From positions 1 to 28,902 of IMG/VR virus record IMGVR_UViG_3300009008_001612: 28,902 nucleotides of DNA; one strand, 5' to 3'. The position numbers were made by a program, and so were the translations under genes. The notes under the pieces were generated by a model, which had not been told where the DNA came from, made no database searches, and was given only the letters and a program-made list of their open reading frames with translations. This document shows positions 6,238-28,645 of the stretch, one piece after another; position 1 is the first letter of the stretch; every line of letters begins with the position of its first letter. Origin of the DNA: a virus.

Positions 6238-6471
6238 TTGAAAAATTTTAATCACCTTTTTGAAAAGCATGAATTAATTATTAATTGCAAACAAAGAAAT
6301 ACAGAGCTATGCCACTGGAGACCCACCGGCAACATAAAAGCCACTGCTGGTGACAACGTTTGTGTCTCCTTGGTGTGCACCCGGTGTGATGCCCGCACTA
6401 ACGTGTTCTTAGAACACAAGCAATATAAAAATCATGAGAAAATATTACTAAAGGAGATAGAGAGTGTTTAA
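6238..6471 (+). CDS. Small Cys-containing protein, possibly zinc-binding
   Basis: A 77-residue protein that I do not recognise. TTG at 6238 is the chosen start because a consensus AGGAGG lies at 6228-6233, overlapping the end of the reductase gene; an upstream start in the same frame would have no such site. It contains several cysteines and histidines, including ELCHW and a later CVSLVCTRCD segment that looks like half of a zinc ribbon. The tail is lysine-rich. It overlaps the GroES-like gene by 8 nt and so belongs to the same operon. Position alone does not define a role. Confidence 0.75.
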   Translation: MKNFNHLFEKHELIINCKQRNTELCHWRPTGNIKATAGDNVCVSLVCTRCDARTNVFLEHKQYKNHEKILLKEIESV

Positions 6472-6742
6472 GCCAGTCAACAGATATGTTTTAATTAATA
6501 ACACCAAACCAACAGTCGAGAACGAAACTCCCATGGGAATCCTCTTGCCAGACGACTATAAACCAGCAGAGGAAAGATATACATCTTATAACGTGCTTGG
6601 GTGGGCGGATGATATCAGGTTTGACCTGGATAAAGCCGACTCAATTATCGTTGATAACAGCATGATTGAAGAAATTACTGTGGATAACTCGACATATTCT
6701 ATTGTGCAGGATAATTATATCGTGGGGATTATCCGCAAATAG
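6464..6742 (+). CDS. GroES-like co-chaperonin
   Basis: A 92-residue protein with the pattern of the 10-kDa chaperonin family. It opens FKPVNRYVLI, like the PLHDRVLV start of GroES. A stretch resembling the mobile loop follows (ETPMGILLPDD, about 21-31, compare SAGGIVL), then the barrel strands and the closing DNYIVGIIR, like the ESDILAIV end of GroES. The GTG start at 6464 has AAGGAG at 6451-6456. It is co-transcribed with the ribonucleotide reductase, while the GroEL gene lies 17 kb away under its own promoter. It would cap a GroEL ring, either the phage's (24035) or the host's, as T4 gp31 does. Identity is fairly secure by pattern, although conservation is low. Confidence 0.8.
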   Translation: MFKPVNRYVLINNTKPTVENETPMGILLPDDYKPAEERYTSYNVLGWADDIRFDLDKADSIIVDNSMIEEITVDNSTYSIVQDNYIVGIIRK

Positions 6743-6753
6743 GAAAACATTTA

Positions 6754-7659
6754 ATGGACAAGAATTTTTATAACGAGGCGTCCGCGTCCAGATTGGGGTG
6801 GGAGCCTTCGTGGTTCAATGAAAGATTTTTTGACGACCGGCTGACCAGAGCGGTTAAGAAGTATCAGAGATCGAAGGGTCTGCCAGCCGACGGCCTCTGC
6901 GGTCCTGCGACCTTCCGGCGCCTTTGGACCGATCGCCAAGAAAATATTGACGAGCACGCACCGCCGACATGTCACTATTCAAACTACATTGTATACAACG
7001 GAAATTTTACACCCATCAAGTGGGACAAAGTAGTTTTATGGTCTGAAGCCGGCGCCCCCAAAGCGCGCCGCGGCACTTATTACGATTATACCGGAAGGCC
7101 AAAACGAAGGATCAGGTACTTTGTTAACCATTGGGATGTGTGTCTTAATTCTCGGTCTTGCCAAAGAGTGTTAGACAAGAGGGGCATTTCGGTGCATTTC
7201 TTGATCGACAATGATGGTACAATTTACCAAACGATGGATATGCAGCATGCTGCTTGGCATGCCGGCTCTGAACGAACCAACAGACCGTCCATAGGAGTAG
7301 AAATCACCAACGCATATTATCCAAAATATCAAAACTGGTATAAAAGACACGGTTTTGGCGAGCGCCCGATTATCGATAAAGCGTATGTTAATGGAAACGA
7401 AATTGGCCCGTATACGGACTTCTACCCTGAACAAATTAAAGCGCTCAAGGCCTTGTGGAAAGCGGTTAACGCCGCTACCGGCATTCCTCTCGAAACTCCG
7501 CTCAATCAGTTTGGCAATACTTCGAAAAACTATGAACAGCGCGTGGCTTACGGGAAATATAAAGGCTTTGTAAGTCACTACCACGTCAGTAAAAATAAAA
7601 TTGATTGTGCAGGCTTGGATATTAAGGCGCTTTTGGATGAGATAAAGGAAGAAAAATGA
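6754..7659 (+). CDS. Endolysin: N-acetylmuramoyl-L-alanine amidase with peptidoglycan-binding domain
   Basis: A 301-residue zinc amidase that would cut the bond between MurNAc and L-Ala at lysis. Residues about 8-58 form a PG_binding_1 domain (DDRLTRAVKKYQRSKGLPAD followed by GLCGPAT). An Amidase_2 domain (about 115-290) follows. It has FVNHWD with His126, HFLIDNDG at 148-155, HAAWHAG at 165-171 and HYHVSKNKIDCAG, where His277 and Cys285 have the same 8-residue spacing as His122/Cys130 of T7 lysozyme. No signal peptide or membrane segment is seen, so release would need a holin, and none is obvious in this window. The start is ATG 6754. The metzincin gene follows after 3 bases. Confidence 0.92.
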   Translation: MDKNFYNEASASRLGWEPSWFNERFFDDRLTRAVKKYQRSKGLPADGLCGPATFRRLWTDRQENIDEHAPPTCHYSNYIVYNGNFTPIKWDKVVLWSEAGAPKARRGTYYDYTGRPKRRIRYFVNHWDVCLNSRSCQRVLDKRGISVHFLIDNDGTIYQTMDMQHAAWHAGSERTNRPSIGVEITNAYYPKYQNWYKRHGFGERPIIDKAYVNGNEIGPYTDFYPEQIKALKALWKAVNAATGIPLETPLNQFGNTSKNYEQRVAYGKYKGFVSHYHVSKNKIDCAGLDIKALLDEIKEEK

Positions 7660-7662
7660 TTA

Positions 7663-8190
7663 ATGATGTTTTTTCTTCTATTTCTGTTGGCGTTTCAGAC
7701 AAATAACGGAATATCATATCCCGATCATAGATTTTATAAAGCTTCCTATTTCTCACAGAAACCATATCAAAAATATAAATGGACAACAGTACCAAATATT
7801 AGAGTATGTCAGAACACCGAAGTAGCTCTATCGAGAGTTCAGCGCGCCGTAGATTATTGGGAACGCCTCGGGTATGAGTTTGACGAAGTTTATCTGGATC
7901 GTTTTTCATACTGTATGAATCCGAAAGATAATGAGATAGCGATTGTGTTGCCCGAGCAAGGAATTGTTGACGACAAGATGGCCGCTACAAGAATATACAC
8001 AAGCAAGATTACGGGTGAGATAATTAAAGCAAAAATATATATCCTTCCGACGTCGGGCAGAAAAGAACGCGTGCTTGAACACGAAATTGGACACGCTCTT
8101 GGCTGGCAACATTACAATCGTAAAAATCATATTATGCATCCAAATTGGTGGCTCGGCGGTCATAGTTCCTATGGCCTGCAAAAAATGTAG
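7663..8190 (+). CDS. Secreted metzincin (matrixin-like) zinc metalloprotease
   Basis: A 175-residue protein with an N-terminal hydrophobic run (MMFFLLFLLAF), probably a short signal peptide or anchor, so it should act outside the cytoplasm. The zinc site HEIGHALGWQH (140-150) is a complete metzincin HExxHxxGxxH motif. The expected Met-turn HIMHP (Met158) lies 8 residues after it. The preceding region (DYWERLGYEF and following strands) fits the matrixin/astacin fold. The start is ATG 7663 or the adjoining ATG 7666, 3 bases after the amidase stop. A purine-rich GGAAG lies about 12 nt upstream. Partnership with the endolysin suggests a role in envelope breakdown, but modification of the host surface is also possible. 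Confidence 0.88.
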   Translation: MMFFLLFLLAFQTNNGISYPDHRFYKASYFSQKPYQKYKWTTVPNIRVCQNTEVALSRVQRAVDYWERLGYEFDEVYLDRFSYCMNPKDNEIAIVLPEQGIVDDKMAATRIYTSKITGEIIKAKIYILPTSGRKERVLEHEIGHALGWQHYNRKNHIMHPNWWLGGHSSYGLQKM

Positions 8191-8219: not shown

Positions 8220-8241
8220 GTATTAAACATTTAGGAGAAAC

Positions 8242-8511
8242 ATGTTTACAAATTTATTGGTATTAACCATGCTTTCGTGTGTAGCAACAAACAACACACA
8301 AGAGTCTGACTCATCGCCGGAAGTAACAAATGAGGCTGCAGAAAGTCTGGATCGAATGATCGAGACGTCAGAGGCGATGTTGGAAAACATGAAGCTGATG
8401 AACCACAATCTAGAAATGATCTTCCGCGCTGTTACTAACTGCTCTACAGATCAAGAGTGCGAGGCTGAGCATGCCCGCCTCCAAGAACAGATCGATGCGA
8501 GGGCAAAATAG
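8242..8511 (+). CDS. Small putative lipoprotein with coiled coil
   Basis: An 89-residue protein. The first 12 residues are hydrophobic and end at MLSC, so Cys13 could be lipidated. The lipobox is imperfect, since Met rather than Leu/Val occupies -3. The mature part is Ser/Thr/Glu-rich, then a heptad-like amphipathic helix (about 35-65), then a Cys pair (C67 and C73 in NCSTDQEC) and a charged tail. ATG 8242 has AGGAG at 8233-8237. The stop codon shares one base with the GTG of the next gene, so the two are translationally coupled. Size and features recall outer-membrane spanin subunits (Rz1 or u-spanin), but I see no specific match. A superinfection-exclusion lipoprotein is an alternative. Confidence 0.75.
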   Translation: MFTNLLVLTMLSCVATNNTQESDSSPEVTNEAAESLDRMIETSEAMLENMKLMNHNLEMIFRAVTNCSTDQECEAEHARLQEQIDARAK

Positions 8512-9689
8512 TGAAAGTATTATCACTTTTAACAGCATTATCGCTTGGCTTCCCGGCATATGCCGAAGACTTAAGCGATAGCGAAACGTCTTATGCCGGC
8601 GCATCTATCTTAGAAGGAGACTGGGACGTATCGTTTGAAACCGCTACGGATATCGCTGATAGTGAGGACCGATTTCCTTACGCCTTCTTTGAGGGGAATA
8701 CGCTTTACGTGGGTAACTCGGATATATACGACAACACCATTGATGCCATTGTGGAATTTTTCTGGTTCCAGTCGTCAATCGATCGCGGCACGGATTTTTA
8801 TGTTGCCGTCATCAAGACTCGGGTTACTCCCGGGCACGATTGTTACTACGCGCCGTGGGATTGGGCCAGAGGCGCCCAGTGTAAATTATGGGCAGACGAG
8901 TGGTCAGATTGGGGTGAACATCCTGTTCTGAGTGTGGAAGCCATGACTGATGTTGAGCGCGAGCAAGGGGCTTTCCGTTGGGACTGGTCGATTCCGTTTG
9001 AGACTTATGGCATAGACGCTTACGGACAAGTCACCTTCCAAAACAAATATGGAATCGGAGAATCATCCGAGGGAGCGATAATGGCCCACGCTGAGTATCC
9101 CATCACGGAAGACGGCACCCTGAAAGCGGAAGGAAATGTACAAGTGAAGGGCTACCACTCAAAAGAATATTCAGTTCAAACGCAGTATGAGGTCACTCTC
9201 TACGAATGGGACGTTTTTGTTGATGGTCGAGCAGACTTGATGGCGTGGGACATGTACCTTAATCTTGGAGCAAGAGAAACACAATCAGCCTACCATGAAT
9301 ATTTCTTGAGCGTTCAAGTGGAAGAAGGGATGCCCTTCATGATCGATGAGCTAAATTTTGTTGGCAATTTCGATACTGGCTGGTATGATCCTTTCCATCA
9401 TGAATTAGGGGTGGCGTTGACGGATTTGATTATCTCGCAGCCTTTCTTTATTCCTGTTGATGAGCAAGAGGAAGATTCCCAGACCCCAGCAGAAGATACC
9501 GGTACCCAAGCCGAGCAGGACACCGCCGAGGAAGCAGCGCAAGAGCCCAACGATACAGAGTCCAATGTTCTCGTTGTTCTTAACACAACTCCCGACTCTG
9601 AATCAAAGGGTTGTTCCACTGTTGGGCGCACTGCGCTATCTGCTGCATTTATATCCGCGCTTCTTTTAGGTTTTAGAAGGCGCGATTGA
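8511..9689 (+). CDS. Exported surface protein with MYXO-CTERM-like sorting tail
   Basis: A 392-residue protein of unknown function with three clear export features. There is a signal peptide at 1-18 (basic MK, hydrophobic core, PAYA before the cut). An acidic Thr/Gln/Glu linker lies at about 317-351 and contains PAEDTGTQ. The C-terminal tripartite tail from about 367 has GCSTVG, a hydrophobic helix and the basic end LLLGFRRRD. A Gly-Cys, helix and Arg cluster is the plan of the MYXO-CTERM signal found in Myxococcota. The body (about 19-316) is rich in aromatic and acidic residues with alternating strands, suggesting a beta-rich fold. GTG 8511 overlaps the lipoprotein stop by one base. A GlyGly-CTERM-type tail is the alternative, but the Cys argues for the MYXO type. 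Confidence 0.82.
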   Translation: MKVLSLLTALSLGFPAYAEDLSDSETSYAGASILEGDWDVSFETATDIADSEDRFPYAFFEGNTLYVGNSDIYDNTIDAIVEFFWFQSSIDRGTDFYVAVIKTRVTPGHDCYYAPWDWARGAQCKLWADEWSDWGEHPVLSVEAMTDVEREQGAFRWDWSIPFETYGIDAYGQVTFQNKYGIGESSEGAIMAHAEYPITEDGTLKAEGNVQVKGYHSKEYSVQTQYEVTLYEWDVFVDGRADLMAWDMYLNLGARETQSAYHEYFLSVQVEEGMPFMIDELNFVGNFDTGWYDPFHHELGVALTDLIISQPFFIPVDEQEEDSQTPAEDTGTQAEQDTAEEAAQEPNDTESNVLVVLNTTPDSESKGCSTVGRTALSAAFISALLLGFRRRD

Positions 9690-10537
9690 TTTTTGAGCAC
9701 CAAGAAATAGTGGTGGGGAGCAGCCTCGACGCTGTATTGTTTGCTTATAGTAACGAATACCCACTGTTTTTTGAGTCACCTGCACCCCCCTTTAGATTTG
9801 ATTATTTAAATCCGGGAATCGATTTGTCATGTCTTAAAATCCCCAGAGCTGCAGAAAGTTTAACGACGTTTGGCAGCGAAAAGAAAATTGGCTTAGGTAA
9901 AGAATTGTTGTGGGAAAGACTGCTGTTTATAATGTCATTGGTTGGACACCTCCCATTATCGGATCTGTGCAACTCAATTAGGCACGATGAATCAAAAATC
10001 ACATGCTTCAACGAATATTCAAAAATAGCCGAAGTTAGCTACGAAAAAATGTACAATTTTAAGCAAGATGATAAAAATAACAAGCTTTTATGCCGTGACT
10101 GGATAGCTTTTAATAGCGGCGGTAAACACGATATAGATCTTATAGAAACATCCGATGATTTTGTTAATCAGATTTGGTTTTACCAATCTGATAGAATTTG
10201 CGGAAACACTAAAGTTAAAGATGCATGTGCCGTCTCCGTCGTTGACAAAGAATTGGTGGATGATTTTGAATTCAGTCAAACCATGGCTAGATTTAAGGTA
10301 GTAAAAGAAATGAAAGATAGGGGCATGAAAGGTTTGCTGAGCAGCTATGGCCCCAACGGCAATCCCAAGCATTATGATTTTAAAACGTCTATTATGTCAC
10401 GCTCCATTACATCTAATGCTCCGGTGAAGTGTTATAATCAGCACGGCGATACAGTGAATACTCCGAGTTTTAACAAAATGGTGCAGCAATTAGATAAAAG
10501 CTCACAGAGATATTGGAAGATATTGAGGCATTTATGA
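9686..10537 (+). CDS. Unknown protein, possibly with a Rossmann-like start
   Basis: A 283-residue cytoplasmic-looking protein that I do not recognise. It starts at TTG 9686, which overlaps the previous stop as TTGA. No strong ribosome site is visible, so translation is probably coupled. The N-terminal IVVGSSLDAVLFAY (about 8-21) has a strand, glycine turn, helix pattern, as at the start of nucleotide-binding folds, but a second Gly of GxGxxG is lacking. Later segments include DRICGNTKVKDACAVSVVD and LLSSYGPNGN. It ends in an ATGA overlap with the nucleotidyltransferase-like gene. That tight coupling suggests the two products work together. Confidence 0.72.
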   Translation: MIFEHQEIVVGSSLDAVLFAYSNEYPLFFESPAPPFRFDYLNPGIDLSCLKIPRAAESLTTFGSEKKIGLGKELLWERLLFIMSLVGHLPLSDLCNSIRHDESKITCFNEYSKIAEVSYEKMYNFKQDDKNNKLLCRDWIAFNSGGKHDIDLIETSDDFVNQIWFYQSDRICGNTKVKDACAVSVVDKELVDDFEFSQTMARFKVVKEMKDRGMKGLLSSYGPNGNPKHYDFKTSIMSRSITSNAPVKCYNQHGDTVNTPSFNKMVQQLDKSSQRYWKILRHL

Positions 10538-18393: not shown

Positions 18394-18741
18394 ATGCCAA
18401 CATTAAAAAATCTTGAAGCAGCATTGCTTACATTACAGGCCGAAGCACTGAGGCACTACGGCGCAATTGAAATTTTGATTAACAACCCAGTAGGGGTGCC
18501 CGACCACACTGATTATGTCGAGGAGATCGTCAAACACGCCAGGGGGCTTTCTGAGTGCGAAGAGGCTTACGGGTCTTTGCAAAAACATTTCGTACCGAAA
18601 CCGCCGCCGGCTACCCACACGGCTCCACGCCCCGCGCACGAGGGGTCGGTGCCGATTACGCCAGAAAATTCTCCCACCATGAAAAGGGCCCAAAACATTG
18701 TTGACGCAAGAAAGTCTCACGAGGAAGGAAACGATGATTAA
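18394..18741 (+). CDS. Unknown small protein with proline-rich linker
   Basis: A 115-residue protein that I do not recognise. Residues 1-65 look helical (LEAALLTLQAEALRHYGAIE). A Pro/His/Ala-rich flexible stretch follows (about 68-92, starting VPKPPPATHTAPRP), then a charged helix ending in EEGNDD. ATG 18394 has AGGAG a few bases upstream and follows the thioredoxin stop by 3 bases. Its end overlaps the IMPDH-like gene by 8 nt, and its last codons supply GAGGAAGG as ribosome site for that gene. Confidence 0.78.
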   Translation: MPTLKNLEAALLTLQAEALRHYGAIEILINNPVGVPDHTDYVEEIVKHARGLSECEEAYGSLQKHFVPKPPPATHTAPRPAHEGSVPITPENSPTMKRAQNIVDARKSHEEGNDD

Positions 18742-19768
18742 TACCGAGGCGCTAACCTACGATGATGTGCTACTGCAGCCGCAGTATTCCAACATACGTT
18801 CTAGGAGAGAAATTGATATTGGTGTAAAGTTAAAGAAAGACGTCGCCCTATCGCTTCCAGTAATATCATCACCCATGGACACAATTACCGGCGGCGACAT
18901 GTCTGCGATTATCGCGATTGCCGGCGGTATTGGGATCATTCACCGCTATAGCACGATTGAGAGGCAGGTCTTAGAGATTGTCCGTGCATATGAATTGTGC
19001 CCGAAGAATAATATAGTCGTCGGCGCCGCTGTTGGCGTCACTGGTGACTACCTTGAGAGAACCCAAGCATTAATTAGCGCCGGTATTGATATCATTTGCA
19101 TCGATATCGCCCATGGACATCACTTGCTCATGAAAGAAGCGCTAGCGGATATCAAAGCATTGTCAGATAAAGTACATATAATGGCCGGCAACGTGGCTAC
19201 ACTGCAAGGCGTCAACGACCTGGCTGACTGGGGCGCTGATTCCGTACGATGTAATATAGGCGGCGGCTCAATTTGCTCGACTAGAATCCAAACCGGTCAT
19301 GGTATTCCGGGGCTCCAAACTATTTTTGAATGCGCGAAAACAGATCGCGACGTTGGCATTATTGCCGATGGTGGAATCAGGAATTCCGGCGACATTGTTA
19401 AAGCCCTCGCAGCCGGCGCCGACGCAGTAATGTGTGGCTCCCTCTTATCGGGAACATCCGAAACGCCGGGTAATGTATGTGAAGGCCAGGATGGGTTTAA
19501 ATATAAGACGTATCGGGGGATGGCCTCGAAAGAAGCACAAATAAAATGGCGTGGAAAATACTCCTCTTTTGAAGGGGTAGCCAGCCAAGTGCCATATCGC
19601 GGCGCCGTTGAACCTCTCCTAGAAGATTTGAAGAGAGGGATCCGTTCAGGGTTTTCTTACACCGGTGCGCGCAATATCACTGAGTTACAGTCCAAAGCTG
19701 TATTCGTTAGGCAGACTAACGCTGGCTTTGGTGAGTCCAAAGCACACATTAATACTAGGAAATGGTAA
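18734..19768 (+). CDS. IMP dehydrogenase/GMP reductase family enzyme without CBS domains
   Basis: A 344-residue TIM-barrel enzyme. The N-terminus LTYDDVLLQP is the family signature. The active-site loop GGGSICSTR has catalytic Cys181. The phosphate site ADGGIRNSGD is at 211-220, VMCGSLLSGTSETPG at 232-246 and YRGM at 260-263. The sequence around 95-128 (VGAAVGVT then IDIAHGHH) is more like IMPDH, which makes XMP for GTP synthesis, than GMP reductase. However, the regulatory CBS pair normally inserted near residues 75-90 is missing, leaving a size typical of GMP reductase. ATG 18734 was chosen with GAGGAAGG at 18721-18728. Loss of CBS would remove nucleotide feedback. Confidence 0.88.
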   Translation: MINTEALTYDDVLLQPQYSNIRSRREIDIGVKLKKDVALSLPVISSPMDTITGGDMSAIIAIAGGIGIIHRYSTIERQVLEIVRAYELCPKNNIVVGAAVGVTGDYLERTQALISAGIDIICIDIAHGHHLLMKEALADIKALSDKVHIMAGNVATLQGVNDLADWGADSVRCNIGGGSICSTRIQTGHGIPGLQTIFECAKTDRDVGIIADGGIRNSGDIVKALAAGADAVMCGSLLSGTSETPGNVCEGQDGFKYKTYRGMASKEAQIKWRGKYSSFEGVASQVPYRGAVEPLLEDLKRGIRSGFSYTGARNITELQSKAVFVRQTNAGFGESKAHINTRKW

Positions 19769-21566: not shown

Positions 21567-22235
21567 GTGTTTAAAAATGTTAAAAAGAAAATTACTAAGG
21601 CCGGCATCATTGATAAAATCAAGGAAGCGGCCCTCCCAAAGAAAAGCAAAGAAGATAAAGACAAGATTGTTTTAATTGATGCCGACGCTCTCGGAAACGA
21701 GCCCGATATGAGGGTTGTCGGCCTCTTCTCTGATGTCGAAGAAGAAAAGGTAGCAGAACTAGTTCAAGCTATTCTGTATTTAAACGAGCTAAACAAAGCC
21801 GAGAAGGATGAGGCCAAGAAGAAGCCAATCGATTTTTATATTTGTACAAACGGCGGCTCGGCAGACGATATGTTTGCCCTGTATGACATCATTGATATGG
21901 TAAAGAGAGAGACAGAGATTCACACCATTGGCGTTGGTAAGGTCATGTCGGCCGGTGTCTTGCTGCTAGCTGCTGGTACACGGGGTAAAAGAAAGATTGG
22001 CAAGCATTGCCGGGTTATGATTCATAATGTGATCGGCGGCAACCACGGCTCTCTTCCAAATTTAACAAACGAGCTTGAAGCTATTCAAACATTGCAAGAC
22101 GATTACGTGGACGCGTTGGTTGAAAATACCAAGTTAACAAAAAAGACGCTAACTAAAATGCTTAACGAAAAGGTTAACGTCTATTTATCAGCAGAAGAAG
22201 CAATAGAAGTAGGTATTGCAGATATAATTATTTGA
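21567..22235 (+). CDS. ClpP-like serine protease with Asn in the third catalytic position
   Basis: A 222-residue member of the ClpP family. ICTNGGSADD (92-101) matches the oxyanion-strand region. VGKVMSAGVLLLAAGTRGKR (123-142) places Ser128 at the nucleophile position, and CRVMIHNVIGG (148-158) gives His153. The segment before LSAEEAIEVGIAD has Asn204 where the catalytic Asp (B. subtilis D172) is expected. Listeria ClpP1 naturally has Ser/His/Asn there. A lysine-rich N-terminal extension (1-35) replaces the ClpP axial loops. GTG 21567 follows AAGGGGG. It may be the prohead maturation protease, since ClpP-type proteases serve that role in several phages, or may join host ClpP. Confidence 0.88.
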   Translation: MFKNVKKKITKAGIIDKIKEAALPKKSKEDKDKIVLIDADALGNEPDMRVVGLFSDVEEEKVAELVQAILYLNELNKAEKDEAKKKPIDFYICTNGGSADDMFALYDIIDMVKRETEIHTIGVGKVMSAGVLLLAAGTRGKRKIGKHCRVMIHNVIGGNHGSLPNLTNELEAIQTLQDDYVDALVENTKLTKKTLTKMLNEKVNVYLSAEEAIEVGIADIII

Positions 22236-24034: not shown

Positions 24035-25612
24035 GTGAGTCGAGAATACGACGATAATCAAACATTACAACAAAAGATTATGACGGGCGCTAACAAATTA
24101 GCTGACAACGTGGCGTCGACCCTTGGACCGAGAGGAAGGAATGTGCTGCTTCAAGAGAAAGGGCAACCGCCATTCATCACAAAAGATGGCGTGACTGTCG
24201 CCGCTTTTGTCGCGTGCGAAGATCCCTTCGAAAATGCCGCAGCCCAGATTATTAAACAAGCAGCCGTGGAGACGAACAACACTGCCGGCGACGGCACAAC
24301 AACTGCAACCGTTTTAGCCAGAGCAATACTCAGAGAATCACAAAAGTATGTTGTCTCTGGCGTTTCACCAATTGAACTTAAAAGGGGTATAGATGCTAGT
24401 ATTAAACAAGTATGTGATCGCCTTGACAATATGTCACGCCCGGTCACTAATGCAGAAGATATCGCTCACATCGCTACAATTTCTGCCAACAACGATTCAA
24501 ATATCGGAAATCTTATTACTATGGCTATTGATAGGGTCGGAGAAGATGGGTCTGTAACTATTGAAGAATCGCGCTCGGTTGAGACATCGATTGACGTAAC
24601 GGAAGGCTTTAGATTTAACGCTGGATATTGCGCCACTGCGTTTATTACTGACGAGCGGCGAGCGGCGATGGCCTATGAAGAGCCGCTGTTCCTGATAACA
24701 GACCACAAGATTTCGCAGGTTGAGCCGATTCTGCCAATCTTAGAAATGGTAGCGAGAGAGGGGCGCCCATTAGTTATTGTTGCAGAAGATATTGATGGCC
24801 AAGCGTTGGCTGCTCTGATCATGAACGCTGTGCGCGGCACACTAAAGATTGCAGCTATCAAGGCTCCGATGTATGGTGAAGAACGCCGCGCCCTTCTGAG
24901 TGATCTCGCTTTATCTGTAGGCGCCGAGTTTATAAAAAGAGAAGATGGTGCAAAAATGGCCGACGTAAAAATGTCAGATTTGGGAACTGCCCGGGCCATC
25001 GAGAGCACTAAAAATCTTACAACTATTATCGGCGGCAAATGTGATTTCAAACAAGTCGATGAAAGAATTGAGTCGCTAAAAAATCAAATTAAAGACACCG
25101 CCTCCCTCCCGGAATGTGAGAAGTTACAAAGTCGCGTTGTCAGGCTTTCATCTGGTGTGGCTATTATATCTGTGGGAGGAACCACAGAAGTAGAAATGAC
25201 AGAACGGAAGCACCGCATTGAAGATGCTCTTGAGGCTGTCAGATCCGCACAAGACGATGGTATCATCGGCGGGGGTGGTATTGCATTGTTGCGGGCCTCA
25301 CAGGGTATCACCATTGACCCAACTCACGATGATCAGCTTCATGGCTGCGCGGTCGTGCGAGAAGCCTGTGAAGAGCCATTTAGACAGATGGCTATTAATG
25401 CTGGAGAATCAGCCGACATACTAATTAAACTTGTGAACGAATCTGATTCTGATACTGGTTGGGATTTCCGCAACAATAAGTTAACAAACATGTTTGAAGG
25501 TGGTATAATTGATCCCGTAAAGGTCACAAAAACTGCATTGCAGAATGCTGCTAGCTGTGCTAGCACGCTTATCACTACTAATTTTGGTATAATTCAGACG
25601 GAGCTTGAGTAA
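24035..25612 (+). CDS. groL: Chaperonin GroEL (group I)
   Basis: A 525-residue group I chaperonin. ATP-binding residues are present: TLGPRGRNV (29-37), DGVTV (51-55) and AGDGTTTATV (84-93, Asp86 as in E. coli Asp87). The second equatorial half contains RIEDALEAVR, with the Asp equivalent to D398 needed for hydrolysis, and DGIIGGGGIALLRA. The length is near E. coli's 548, but the Gly-Gly-Met C-terminal tail is absent. GTG 24035 has AGAGGT at 24025-24030 and its own promoter. The next gene starts in the last base of its stop. With the GroES-like protein at 6464 it could form a complete phage chaperonin for folding virion proteins. Confidence 0.95.
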   Translation: MSREYDDNQTLQQKIMTGANKLADNVASTLGPRGRNVLLQEKGQPPFITKDGVTVAAFVACEDPFENAAAQIIKQAAVETNNTAGDGTTTATVLARAILRESQKYVVSGVSPIELKRGIDASIKQVCDRLDNMSRPVTNAEDIAHIATISANNDSNIGNLITMAIDRVGEDGSVTIEESRSVETSIDVTEGFRFNAGYCATAFITDERRAAMAYEEPLFLITDHKISQVEPILPILEMVAREGRPLVIVAEDIDGQALAALIMNAVRGTLKIAAIKAPMYGEERRALLSDLALSVGAEFIKREDGAKMADVKMSDLGTARAIESTKNLTTIIGGKCDFKQVDERIESLKNQIKDTASLPECEKLQSRVVRLSSGVAIISVGGTTEVEMTERKHRIEDALEAVRSAQDDGIIGGGGIALLRASQGITIDPTHDDQLHGCAVVREACEEPFRQMAINAGESADILIKLVNESDSDTGWDFRNNKLTNMFEGGIIDPVKVTKTALQNAASCASTLITTNFGIIQTELE

Positions 25613-27219: not shown

Positions 27220-27556
27220 ATTAGGAAAAACCTTCGCGTTCTTTACAGTGGCCCAAGCCTGTGTTTGGTTTCAGTGCTATTCACATTACATTTGGTCTTG
27301 GTGGGAAGGCAAACCGTTTCACGCTGCCATAATATTTGGCATACCGGCTAGTGTTTTATTTTGGTATGGAACCAAAATTGCCGTCGATGCCACCGGAGCC
27401 GCATGGACGGCTAGGATGTTGGGCTTTGGCGCCTCTTACTTTACATTTCCTGTGTTGACTTGGTGGCTGTTGAACGAGAGTATGTTCACGACGAAAACTA
27501 TGTTGTGTATATTTTTATCATTTTTAATTGTTGGTATTCAATTATTTTGGAGATAG
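27206..27556 (+). CDS. Small integral membrane protein (about four helices)
   Basis: A 116-residue protein with hydrophobic segments at about 10-30, 38-58, 68-88 and 96-114, so probably four membrane helices, arranged somewhat like half of a DMT/EamA-type transporter. The TTG start at 27206 is supported by a full AAGGAGGT at 27193-27200; it overlaps the previous gene by 14 nt. Function is unknown. Being directly before two mannose-pathway genes, it might act with them, or it could be a holin-like protein, though it lacks the charged tail holins usually have. Confidence 0.78.
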   Translation: MPIFELGKTFAFFTVAQACVWFQCYSHYIWSWWEGKPFHAAIIFGIPASVLFWYGTKIAVDATGAAWTARMLGFGASYFTFPVLTWWLLNESMFTTKTMLCIFLSFLIVGIQLFWR

Positions 27557-27557
27557 T

Positions 27558-27890
27558 ATGAGAATTGTAGAAAAACCTTGGGGCTTCGAGCACATCTGGG
27601 CCGAAACCGACGCTTACGTTGCTAAGATGCTCCACATAAACCCAAAGCATCGACTGTCCCTCCAGTATCACAAGATCAAAGAAGAGACGGTCTACGTGCT
27701 GGAGGGCACGCTTCTGAACTGGACCGATGAAGAGAATCCTCCCCAGAAATATCCCCAAGGCGCCGTTTGCCACATTAAACCTAATCAGGTGCACCGCTTT
27801 GGGGCCGGCGACGAACTAGTTAGACTGATGGAAGTTTCCACCCCTCATCTTGATGATGTTGTAAGACTATCGGATGACTATGAAAGATGA
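27558..27890 (+). CDS. Cupin of the mannose-6-phosphate isomerase (ManC C-terminal) type
   Basis: A 110-residue single cupin domain. It begins with VEKPWGFEHIWAE and continues with LSLQYHKIKEETVYVLEG, PNQVHRFGAG and LVRLMEVSTPHLDDVVRLSD, then DDYER. This is the pattern of the type II phosphomannose isomerase domain fused to GDP-mannose pyrophosphorylase, here standing alone. Metal ligands would be His38, Glu43 and His79. The reaction is fructose-6-phosphate to mannose-6-phosphate. ATG 27558 has GGAG at 27549-27552; an earlier TTG frame start is not needed. It overlaps the phosphomannomutase gene as ATGA, which supports consecutive steps of one pathway. Confidence 0.88.
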   Translation: MRIVEKPWGFEHIWAETDAYVAKMLHINPKHRLSLQYHKIKEETVYVLEGTLLNWTDEENPPQKYPQGAVCHIKPNQVHRFGAGDELVRLMEVSTPHLDDVVRLSDDYER

Positions 27891-28645
27891 GCGATATATT
27901 TCTTTTTGATGTGGACGGAACCCTAACAGTTGCCAAGCAGAAGATGGACCCATTGTTTCAAAAAGATTTTTTGAAATGGATGGAAGGAAAAGAAGTTTAT
28001 ATTGTGTCCGGCGGCACATTTGAAAGAATTTTAAATCAAGTTGGCACCGATGTTCTTGACAAAACATCGGGCGTTTTTGCATGTATGGGCAATGCTTTCT
28101 TGCAGAAACCAGATCTTGTCAACGAGACTGGCTTTAACGAGTGGGAGCTAGTATATGCGAACAAGTTTGTCTATCCTAAGAACCTCAATCGCCGCTTAGA
28201 ATCTATTGTGGCAAAGTCTGATTTTTCAATCAAGACTGGCCGTCATTATGAAGAGCGCGTGGGTATGTTAAACTTTTCGATCGTCGGCCGCAACGCAAAT
28301 CAAGAGCAAAGAAAGCGTTATGAAGAATGGGATGCCGAGAAGCAAGAGAGAAAACAGATTGTTGAAGTTCTCAAGAAAAAGTTTAACACACTTGACTTTG
28401 TTATAGGTGGTGCTGTGAGCATGGACATATTCAACAAAGGAAACGACAAATCACAGATTATTAAAAGATATTTTGAAGAAGCATTAGAACACAACAAGTT
28501 TCACTTTGTGGGCGATAGAATTCCTTCCCCGGGCAACGATCACACGCTGGCCGAAAAACTGCGCAAACACCCGAATGGCGCTGCATACGAAGTTGAAACA
28601 TGGGAAGACACCGCTAAACTATTAAAGTCTTCGCCATTTGTGTAG
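27887..28645 (+). CDS. Phosphomannomutase, eukaryotic (PMM2-like, HAD) type
   Basis: A 252-residue HAD-superfamily enzyme that would convert mannose-6-phosphate to mannose-1-phosphate. LFDVDGTLT (6-14) contains the phosphorylated Asp8 and acid/base Asp10. VSGGTFERIL follows, then VGMLNFSIVGRNANQEQR, corresponding to the RNGMLNxSPIGR signature. GGAVSMDIFNKGNDKSQII corresponds to GGxxSxDxxPxGxDK, and FVGDRIPSPGNDH to FGDxxxxGGND. The length fits PMM (about 246-260). This family is typical of eukaryotes and scattered in bacteria, unlike the usual bacterial ManB. It begins in an ATGA overlap with the isomerase cupin, which would supply its substrate. All catalytic motifs appear intact. Confidence 0.92.
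   Translation: MSDIFLFDVDGTLTVAKQKMDPLFQKDFLKWMEGKEVYIVSGGTFERILNQVGTDVLDKTSGVFACMGNAFLQKPDLVNETGFNEWELVYANKFVYPKNLNRRLESIVAKSDFSIKTGRHYEERVGMLNFSIVGRNANQEQRKRYEEWDAEKQERKQIVEVLKKKFNTLDFVIGGAVSMDIFNKGNDKSQIIKRYFEEALEHNKFHFVGDRIPSPGNDHTLAEKLRKHPNGAAYEVETWEDTAKLLKSSPFV

Follow-up and report, generated by a model that had tools for sequence, protein, structure and literature searches.

In Myxococcus xanthus, proteins carrying a C-terminal MYXO-CTERM tag are exported and retained by the helix of the tag; MrtX cuts them in a cysteine-dependent manner, and the type II secretion system (T2SS) takes them to the surface (PMC11980579). Lipidation in this pathway has been proposed rather than demonstrated, and MYXO-CTERM occurs phylum-wide in the Myxococcota (PMC11980579). 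We found no paper on a phage cargo protein of the myxosortase pathway, and the 2025 myxosortase paper makes no mention of phages. Here, we analysed a stretch of viral DNA of 28,902 bases (IMG/VR record IMGVR_UViG_3300009008_001612, positions 1 to 28,902; hereafter the window) in which a gene at 8511..9689 (plus strand, GTG start) encodes a predicted phage surface protein of 392 residues with a MYXO-CTERM-type tail. The phage probably makes a host-derived cell-surface protein that is sorted by the myxosortase and the T2SS of a Myxococcota-type host, this level of confidence applying to the sorting mechanism and the type of host.

The protein, whose features all lie on the plus strand, begins with a signal peptide at residues 1-18 (8511..8564), with the predicted cut between AYA and ED in GFPAYA-ED. 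This peptide was called from the sequence by eye and from hydropathy, not with SignalP, in the window protein and its relatives, all of which have a counterpart of it, as is expected of MYXO-CTERM precursors; AlphaFold places a helix at residues 2-12. It is followed by a conserved beta-rich domain of about 290 residues (residues 22-312; 8574..9446) and by an acidic, disordered linker (residues 313-362; 9447..9596), which includes EDTG/DTAEE, is hypervariable in the alignment and is modelled with a predicted local distance difference test (pLDDT) score below 50. The C-terminal tail (residues 363-392; 9597..9686; SESKGCSTVGRTALSAAFISALLLGFRRRD), delimited from profiles, alignment and the AlphaFold model, exhibits KGCS within SKGCS, then a hydrophobic helix at residues 374-387, and then RRRD. 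Among 11 phage members, the ratio of non-synonymous to synonymous polymorphism (pN/pS) is 0.10 for the domain, with synonymous sites saturated, and about 0.45 for the linker and the tail. The preliminary description of this DNA had proposed a signal peptide, an acidic linker with DTG and a tail made of a GC, a hydrophobic helix and three arginines, and this architecture was confirmed from the sequence and from its relatives.

With regard to the tail, Cys368 (codon 9612..9614), the predicted lipidation site, is the single invariant residue across 27 diverse phage tails, the other tail residues being subject to drift. In an alignment of 37 phage and cellular sequences (A2), no other column after P311 is invariant. 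Together with the transmembrane helix and the Arg-rich end, this invariant cysteine constitutes the signature of MYXO-CTERM tails. The cysteine, the hydrophobic helix and the basic end are kept in every one of the 57 viral relatives whose 3' end is intact, many of these relatives being near-copies, the most deviant tails being those of L039, L034 and L056. In L056 (9956-11182), the tail runs beyond the RR into a Cys-rich extension (QEICEACGCIPCDCDWGNLDP). Two related phage contigs of 293 kb and 194 kb (487 kb in total) were scanned in six frames for a signal peptide combined with a cysteine, a hydrophobic stretch and two basic residues. Each contig yielded one such open reading frame (ORF), the homolog of the window gene, and no second one; the architecture is therefore not due to chance. 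In another phage, L065, a 60-aa ORF (9780-9962) located right upstream of the gene begins with MDTGDTAEIQDTS and ends with ISCTTFGVYSPLLLVIPLTAMWLRRIK; it is a remnant, or a second, minimal tail, of this type.

A signal peptide, a transmembrane helix and a basic end would be enough for a plain C-terminal anchor, which would keep the protein tethered to the inner membrane and facing the periplasm, for example with a part in lysis or in blocking DNA entry, with no processing by a myxosortase. The position of the gene beside an endolysin in the phage group of the window, as well as the score of the window tail, which is below the curated cut-offs, fit with such an anchor. Nevertheless, a plain anchor has no need for an invariant cysteine at a fixed spot ahead of the helix, and elsewhere the gene is distant from any endolysin. 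As the profile searches and the chromosomal orthologs described below also argue against it, we regard this alternative as improbable.

A scan of NCBIfam with the window protein returned only the MXAN_0125 MYXO-CTERM model (E 0.14) and GC_trans_RRR (E 5), neither of which reached its cut-off. As the curated models do not call it, the window protein is described here as MYXO-CTERM-like and homologous to true members, and not as a certified member. When the 28 members of set A1 were compared with NCBIfam (18,950 families), seven families were matched, all of which are models related to CTERM tags or myxosortases. One phage member, L027, reached 22.4 bits in a six-frame search and 17.7 bits in hmmscan, the cut-off being 20. 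The preliminary description had suggested running TIGR03901 and GlyGly-CTERM on the tail: GlyGly-CTERM matched none of the 28 members at E<=10 and TIGR03901 did not match the window protein, whereas the cellular orthologs L049 and L199 pass TIGR03901.

A profile was built from the last 33 residues of the 27 phage members only. It found 17-49 matches in each of eight bacterial genomes carrying an ortholog of the gene (best E 1.9e-6 to 7e-5) and 1-6 matches in each of eight control genomes (best E 0.003-0.18), which are mostly smaller, the gap exceeding the difference in size. Many of its top sites are TIGR03901 sites (e.g. G004:C945, G002:C378, G004:C829, G007:C141 and G005:C42). The behaviour of the tail is not that of an ordinary transmembrane helix, the outcome that would have spoken against the first description, since the 28 members match only CTERM and myxosortase models and the phage-tail profile retrieves the MYXO-CTERM set of the ortholog-bearing genomes.

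The cellular orthologs are 38-50% identical to the phage protein and have an identical layout. A scan of about 85,000 genomes yielded seven loci, six of them in metagenome-assembled genomes (MAGs) labelled Deltaproteobacteria or proteobacterium. L046 (DUCW01000115.1) was rejected as a Gemmatimonadetes ortholog: it lies on a 3.7-kb contig with a coverage of 0.07, the genome that holds it encodes no MYXO-CTERM proteins, and in the tree it falls within the phage clade. We regard this contig as a stray piece of one such phage inside a Gemmatimonadetes MAG. In contrast, L051 is plainly chromosomal, adjoining homologs of lpxA, lpxB and msbA (named by reading their translations), and L202 adjoins a protease with a MYXO-CTERM tail of its own. 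For five orthologs the contig includes the 3' end, and all five exhibit MYXO-CTERM-type tails; the tails of L049 and the later-found L199 (TIGR03901) and of L047 (TIGR03382) are over the curated cut-offs. The gene neighbourhood of the cellular orthologs varies among genomes and, not being conserved throughout, gives no hint of function.

A full or partial ortholog is present in eight genomes among 58 relatives of G006. Six of these eight encode 10-51 proteins over the TIGR03901 cut-off each, against none in 14 controls. In seven of the eight, a CPBP protease that is nearest to MrtP exceeds the cut-off of the myxosortase core model (Mrt_core), and the T2SS secretin GspD is over its cut-off in six, both counts referring to the ortholog-bearing genomes. 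The proposal of a myxosortase-type tail on a phage protein is thus supported by chromosomal orthologs with canonical tails in genomes that encode myxosortases. No CPBP protease that could serve as a phage-encoded sortase was found in 19 phage records, most of them fragments; the phages would accordingly depend on the myxosortase of their host.

Under the sorting model, the protein would be exported by Sec through its signal peptide, and the C-terminal helix would then retain it in the inner membrane, the Arg cluster lying on the cytoplasmic side, both steps being read from the sequence. The host would modify Cys368, its myxosortase would cleave just C-terminal of this residue, and its T2SS would carry the protein, already folded, to the outer surface, with a lipid on Cys368 as the anchor there. 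The basis for inferring these later steps is the homology to the Myxococcus pathway together with the machinery of the ortholog-bearing genomes. The acidic linker probably spaces the beta-rich domain from the membrane.

Several observations weigh against this model. The window tail misses both curated MYXO-CTERM cut-offs, with 7.9 bits against 15.85 for TIGR03382 and TIGR03901 not being listed. Among the ortholog-bearing genomes, none of the CPBP matches in G007 is clearly a myxosortase, and G004 and G007 have no GspD over the cut-off, although MAGs may be incomplete. The conservation of RR in the context of the window is partly confounded by the next gene (9686..10537, plus strand), as its TTG start overlaps the stop codon and its Shine-Dalgarno sequence, AGAAGG, lies inside the RRR codons; nevertheless, the basic end persists in other phage contexts and in bacterial orthologs without that downstream gene. 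These phages have no cultured relative and no direct link to a host, and no CRISPR (clustered regularly interspaced short palindromic repeats) link was obtained when 977 spacers from the Cas1 regions of the relatives were compared with 2.26 Mb of related phage DNA, the best match covering 18 of 35 bases.

In a tree of the domain, the seven cellular sequences are split from all 33 viral ones, including L046, by one branch with a support of 100/100, the root not being fixed. Owing to this single split, one transfer suffices, and its direction is likely to be from cell to phage, the gene having probably entered the phages in a single capture from a Myxococcota-type bacterium. On the phage side, a loop with two cysteines, C111 to C124 (8841..8882), was gained; in the alignment, this loop is absent from the cellular orthologs and from the basal phages L065 and L067. 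The DNA of the window matches that of the 58 relatives mostly in tRNA-Met and in short stretches of the gene.

We consider the ortholog-bearing genomes to be Myxococcota because MYXO-CTERM is found throughout that phylum and because of the placement of UBA796, which we take to be a Myxococcota class in GTDB. Transfer-messenger RNA (tmRNA) genes are present in six phage records, with tags that all start with ANNN and in three cases follow ANNNxH[FY]. They are located at L277:12354-12761, L292:15409-15752 and L038:3098-3429 and in L053, L056 and L059; the tags have 14 residues (e.g. ANNNYHFEADRLAA) and resemble those of the ortholog-bearing bacteria. All 11 tmRNAs examined from the relatives of G006 start with ANNN, seven of them as ANNNxH[FY]; in another lineage, ANNNxH[FY] is found in none of 13 tmRNAs and an ANNN start in one. 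This likeness is supportive, not proof. The tail had been put forward as a strong clue to the host phylum; the clue holds as far as the orthologs in Myxococcota-type genomes and the tmRNA tags are concerned, whereas the spacers gave no full-length match. Based on the orthologs and the tmRNA hint, the host phylum is probably Myxococcota.

The distribution of the gene among phages is patchy. A scan of viral contigs found 45 loci, and 61 when the alignment was used, on contigs of up to 293 kb; no cultured phage matches the protein. The DNA polymerase of this phage group shows no more than about 31% identity to its best-listed cultured relatives. With the endolysin (6754..7659, plus strand; peptidoglycan-binding and amidase_2 domains) as anchor, the gene is present in 24 of 73 comparable phage loci and absent from 49; as many of the loci are near-copies, these figures count loci rather than events. 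In the close relative L122, the segment corresponding to 8232..9672 is missing, and the flanks on either side match at 84-88% DNA identity. L122 retains the RRRD* codons as a scar, and L129 retains FRRQH*, which we read as loss by deletion; the shared Shine-Dalgarno sequence could be another reason for these retained bases. In distant phages, the gene lies far from any endolysin, in several unrelated neighbourhoods, beside transfer RNAs (tRNAs), DnaE or sugar genes. The gene is best explained as accessory cargo of the moron type, passed among large marine phages and lost from them.

In the window, the gene adjoins not only the amidase endolysin but also a secreted, matrixin-like metalloprotease (7663..8190, plus strand; HEIGHALGWQH) and a small predicted lipoprotein (8242..8511, plus strand; MFTNLLVLTMLSC), as would be expected if all four formed a lysis cassette that breaks the outer layers late in infection. 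Yet two thirds of the comparable phages have the endolysin without this gene, the linkage to the matrixin and the lipoprotein is inconsistent, the distant phages place the gene elsewhere, and the orthologs are ordinary chromosomal genes in bacteria. Membership of a lysis cassette is consequently very improbable. The metalloprotease has no CTERM tail, and its best NCBIfam model is that of a myxosortase-dependent metalloprotease, with a weak match. The lipoprotein is seen only in loci that carry the gene, namely the window, L009, L014 and L022; its start, MFTNLL, and its Shine-Dalgarno sequence are the same as those of the CTERM genes without this lipoprotein, which suggests an insertion or deletion at the start of the signal peptide.

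With regard to function, searches with the domain sequence gave no match to a PHROG or to a PDB sequence, and no Pfam match better than chance. Two AlphaFold models of moderate confidence were obtained (pLDDT 70.6 for the full length and 69.1 for the domain alone). The full-length model had no significant match in the PDB, and its single match in BFVD (8.7e-4) was disregarded, with a template-modelling (TM) score of 0.10 and a probability of 0.20. The domain-only model had nine PDB matches at E<=0.001 (best 1.9e-5, probability 1.00), all of them to pore formers of the leukocidin/alpha-hemolysin type, and its poorly modelled stretch 160-230 contains an amphipathic hairpin with a tip of variable length. 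The displayed domain might thus be a tethered protein of the beta-pore-forming type acting on neighbouring cells, rival phages or predators. This is unlikely, as the TM-scores are only 0.24-0.37 in a model with a pLDDT of 69, sequence searches at E<=10 of Pfam (with 40 members) and of the PDB give no match to the leukocidin/alpha-hemolysin family, and strand alternation is common to all beta sandwiches. The fold match is a weak and unproven lead.

The most likely use of the protein would be to change the surface of the infected cell. The accessory distribution, the predicted exposure and the origin from a host surface protein would fit a factor for superinfection exclusion or another surface modification, as with the phage lipoprotein Ltp (PMC3952083). 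Surface display as a block to other phages or predators, the purpose suggested in the preliminary description, may be one such use. Superinfection exclusion is our leading guess, although an unproven and rather doubtful one; no known defence family was matched in PADLOC. A further idea, which we think is quite unlikely to hold as a whole, is that several large marine phage lineages use the Myxococcota myxosortase pathway to mount a lipid-anchored, pore-former-like surface protein that alters contacts with neighbours, prey or rival phages.

Other phage genes in the window encode RecA/UvsX, a class II ribonucleotide reductase, DnaE, a Dam methylase and, with confirmation by Pfam, an IMP (inosine monophosphate) dehydrogenase (18698-19768), ClpP (21567-22235) and a GroEL/Cpn60-family chaperonin (24035-25612). 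A GroES-like protein was recognised by reading at 6464-6742. The region 27528-28645 encodes a cupin of the mannose-6-phosphate-isomerase type followed by a phosphomannomutase of the eukaryotic family (PMM, HAD; PF03332, E 4.7e-29); in L054 and L061, the CTERM gene is immediately preceded by a comparable cupin.

Compared with known systems, the protein shares the tripartite C-terminal tag and the predicted association with an intramembrane protease with the GlyGly-CTERM/rhombosortase, JDVT-CTERM and Synerg-CTERM systems, but the GlyGly-CTERM model matches no member and Synerg-CTERM touches one of the 28 members weakly (0.44). With MYXO-CTERM proteins (TIGR03901/TIGR03382), such as TraA and MXAN_4924, which are sorted by MrtX (PMC11980579), it has in common the signal peptide, the disordered linker, the Cys motif, the transmembrane helix and the Arg-rich end, as well as an orthologous domain with a canonical tail in myxosortase genomes. 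It differs from them in being encoded by a phage, in its more divergent tail, usually with one cysteine, acidic residues often after the Arg cluster and a window score below the cut-off, and in its domain, which is unrelated to TraA or to any named family. The finding offers a probable host phylum for a group of large uncultured marine phages and brings to light a tail that is small and testable as well as an unannotated domain family. Like Ltp of phage TP-J34, a superinfection-exclusion lipoprotein (PMC3952083), the protein is encoded by a phage, is accessory and moron-type, occurs in phages and bacteria and is predicted to be exposed on the host surface. Ltp is anchored N-terminally in a Gram-positive host, whereas a C-terminal anchor through the CTERM tail is predicted here, in a host with an outer membrane. 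If this is true, a surface-sorting system of the host would be a route exploited by phages in outer-membrane bacteria, in parallel to lipoprotein anchoring in Gram-positives.
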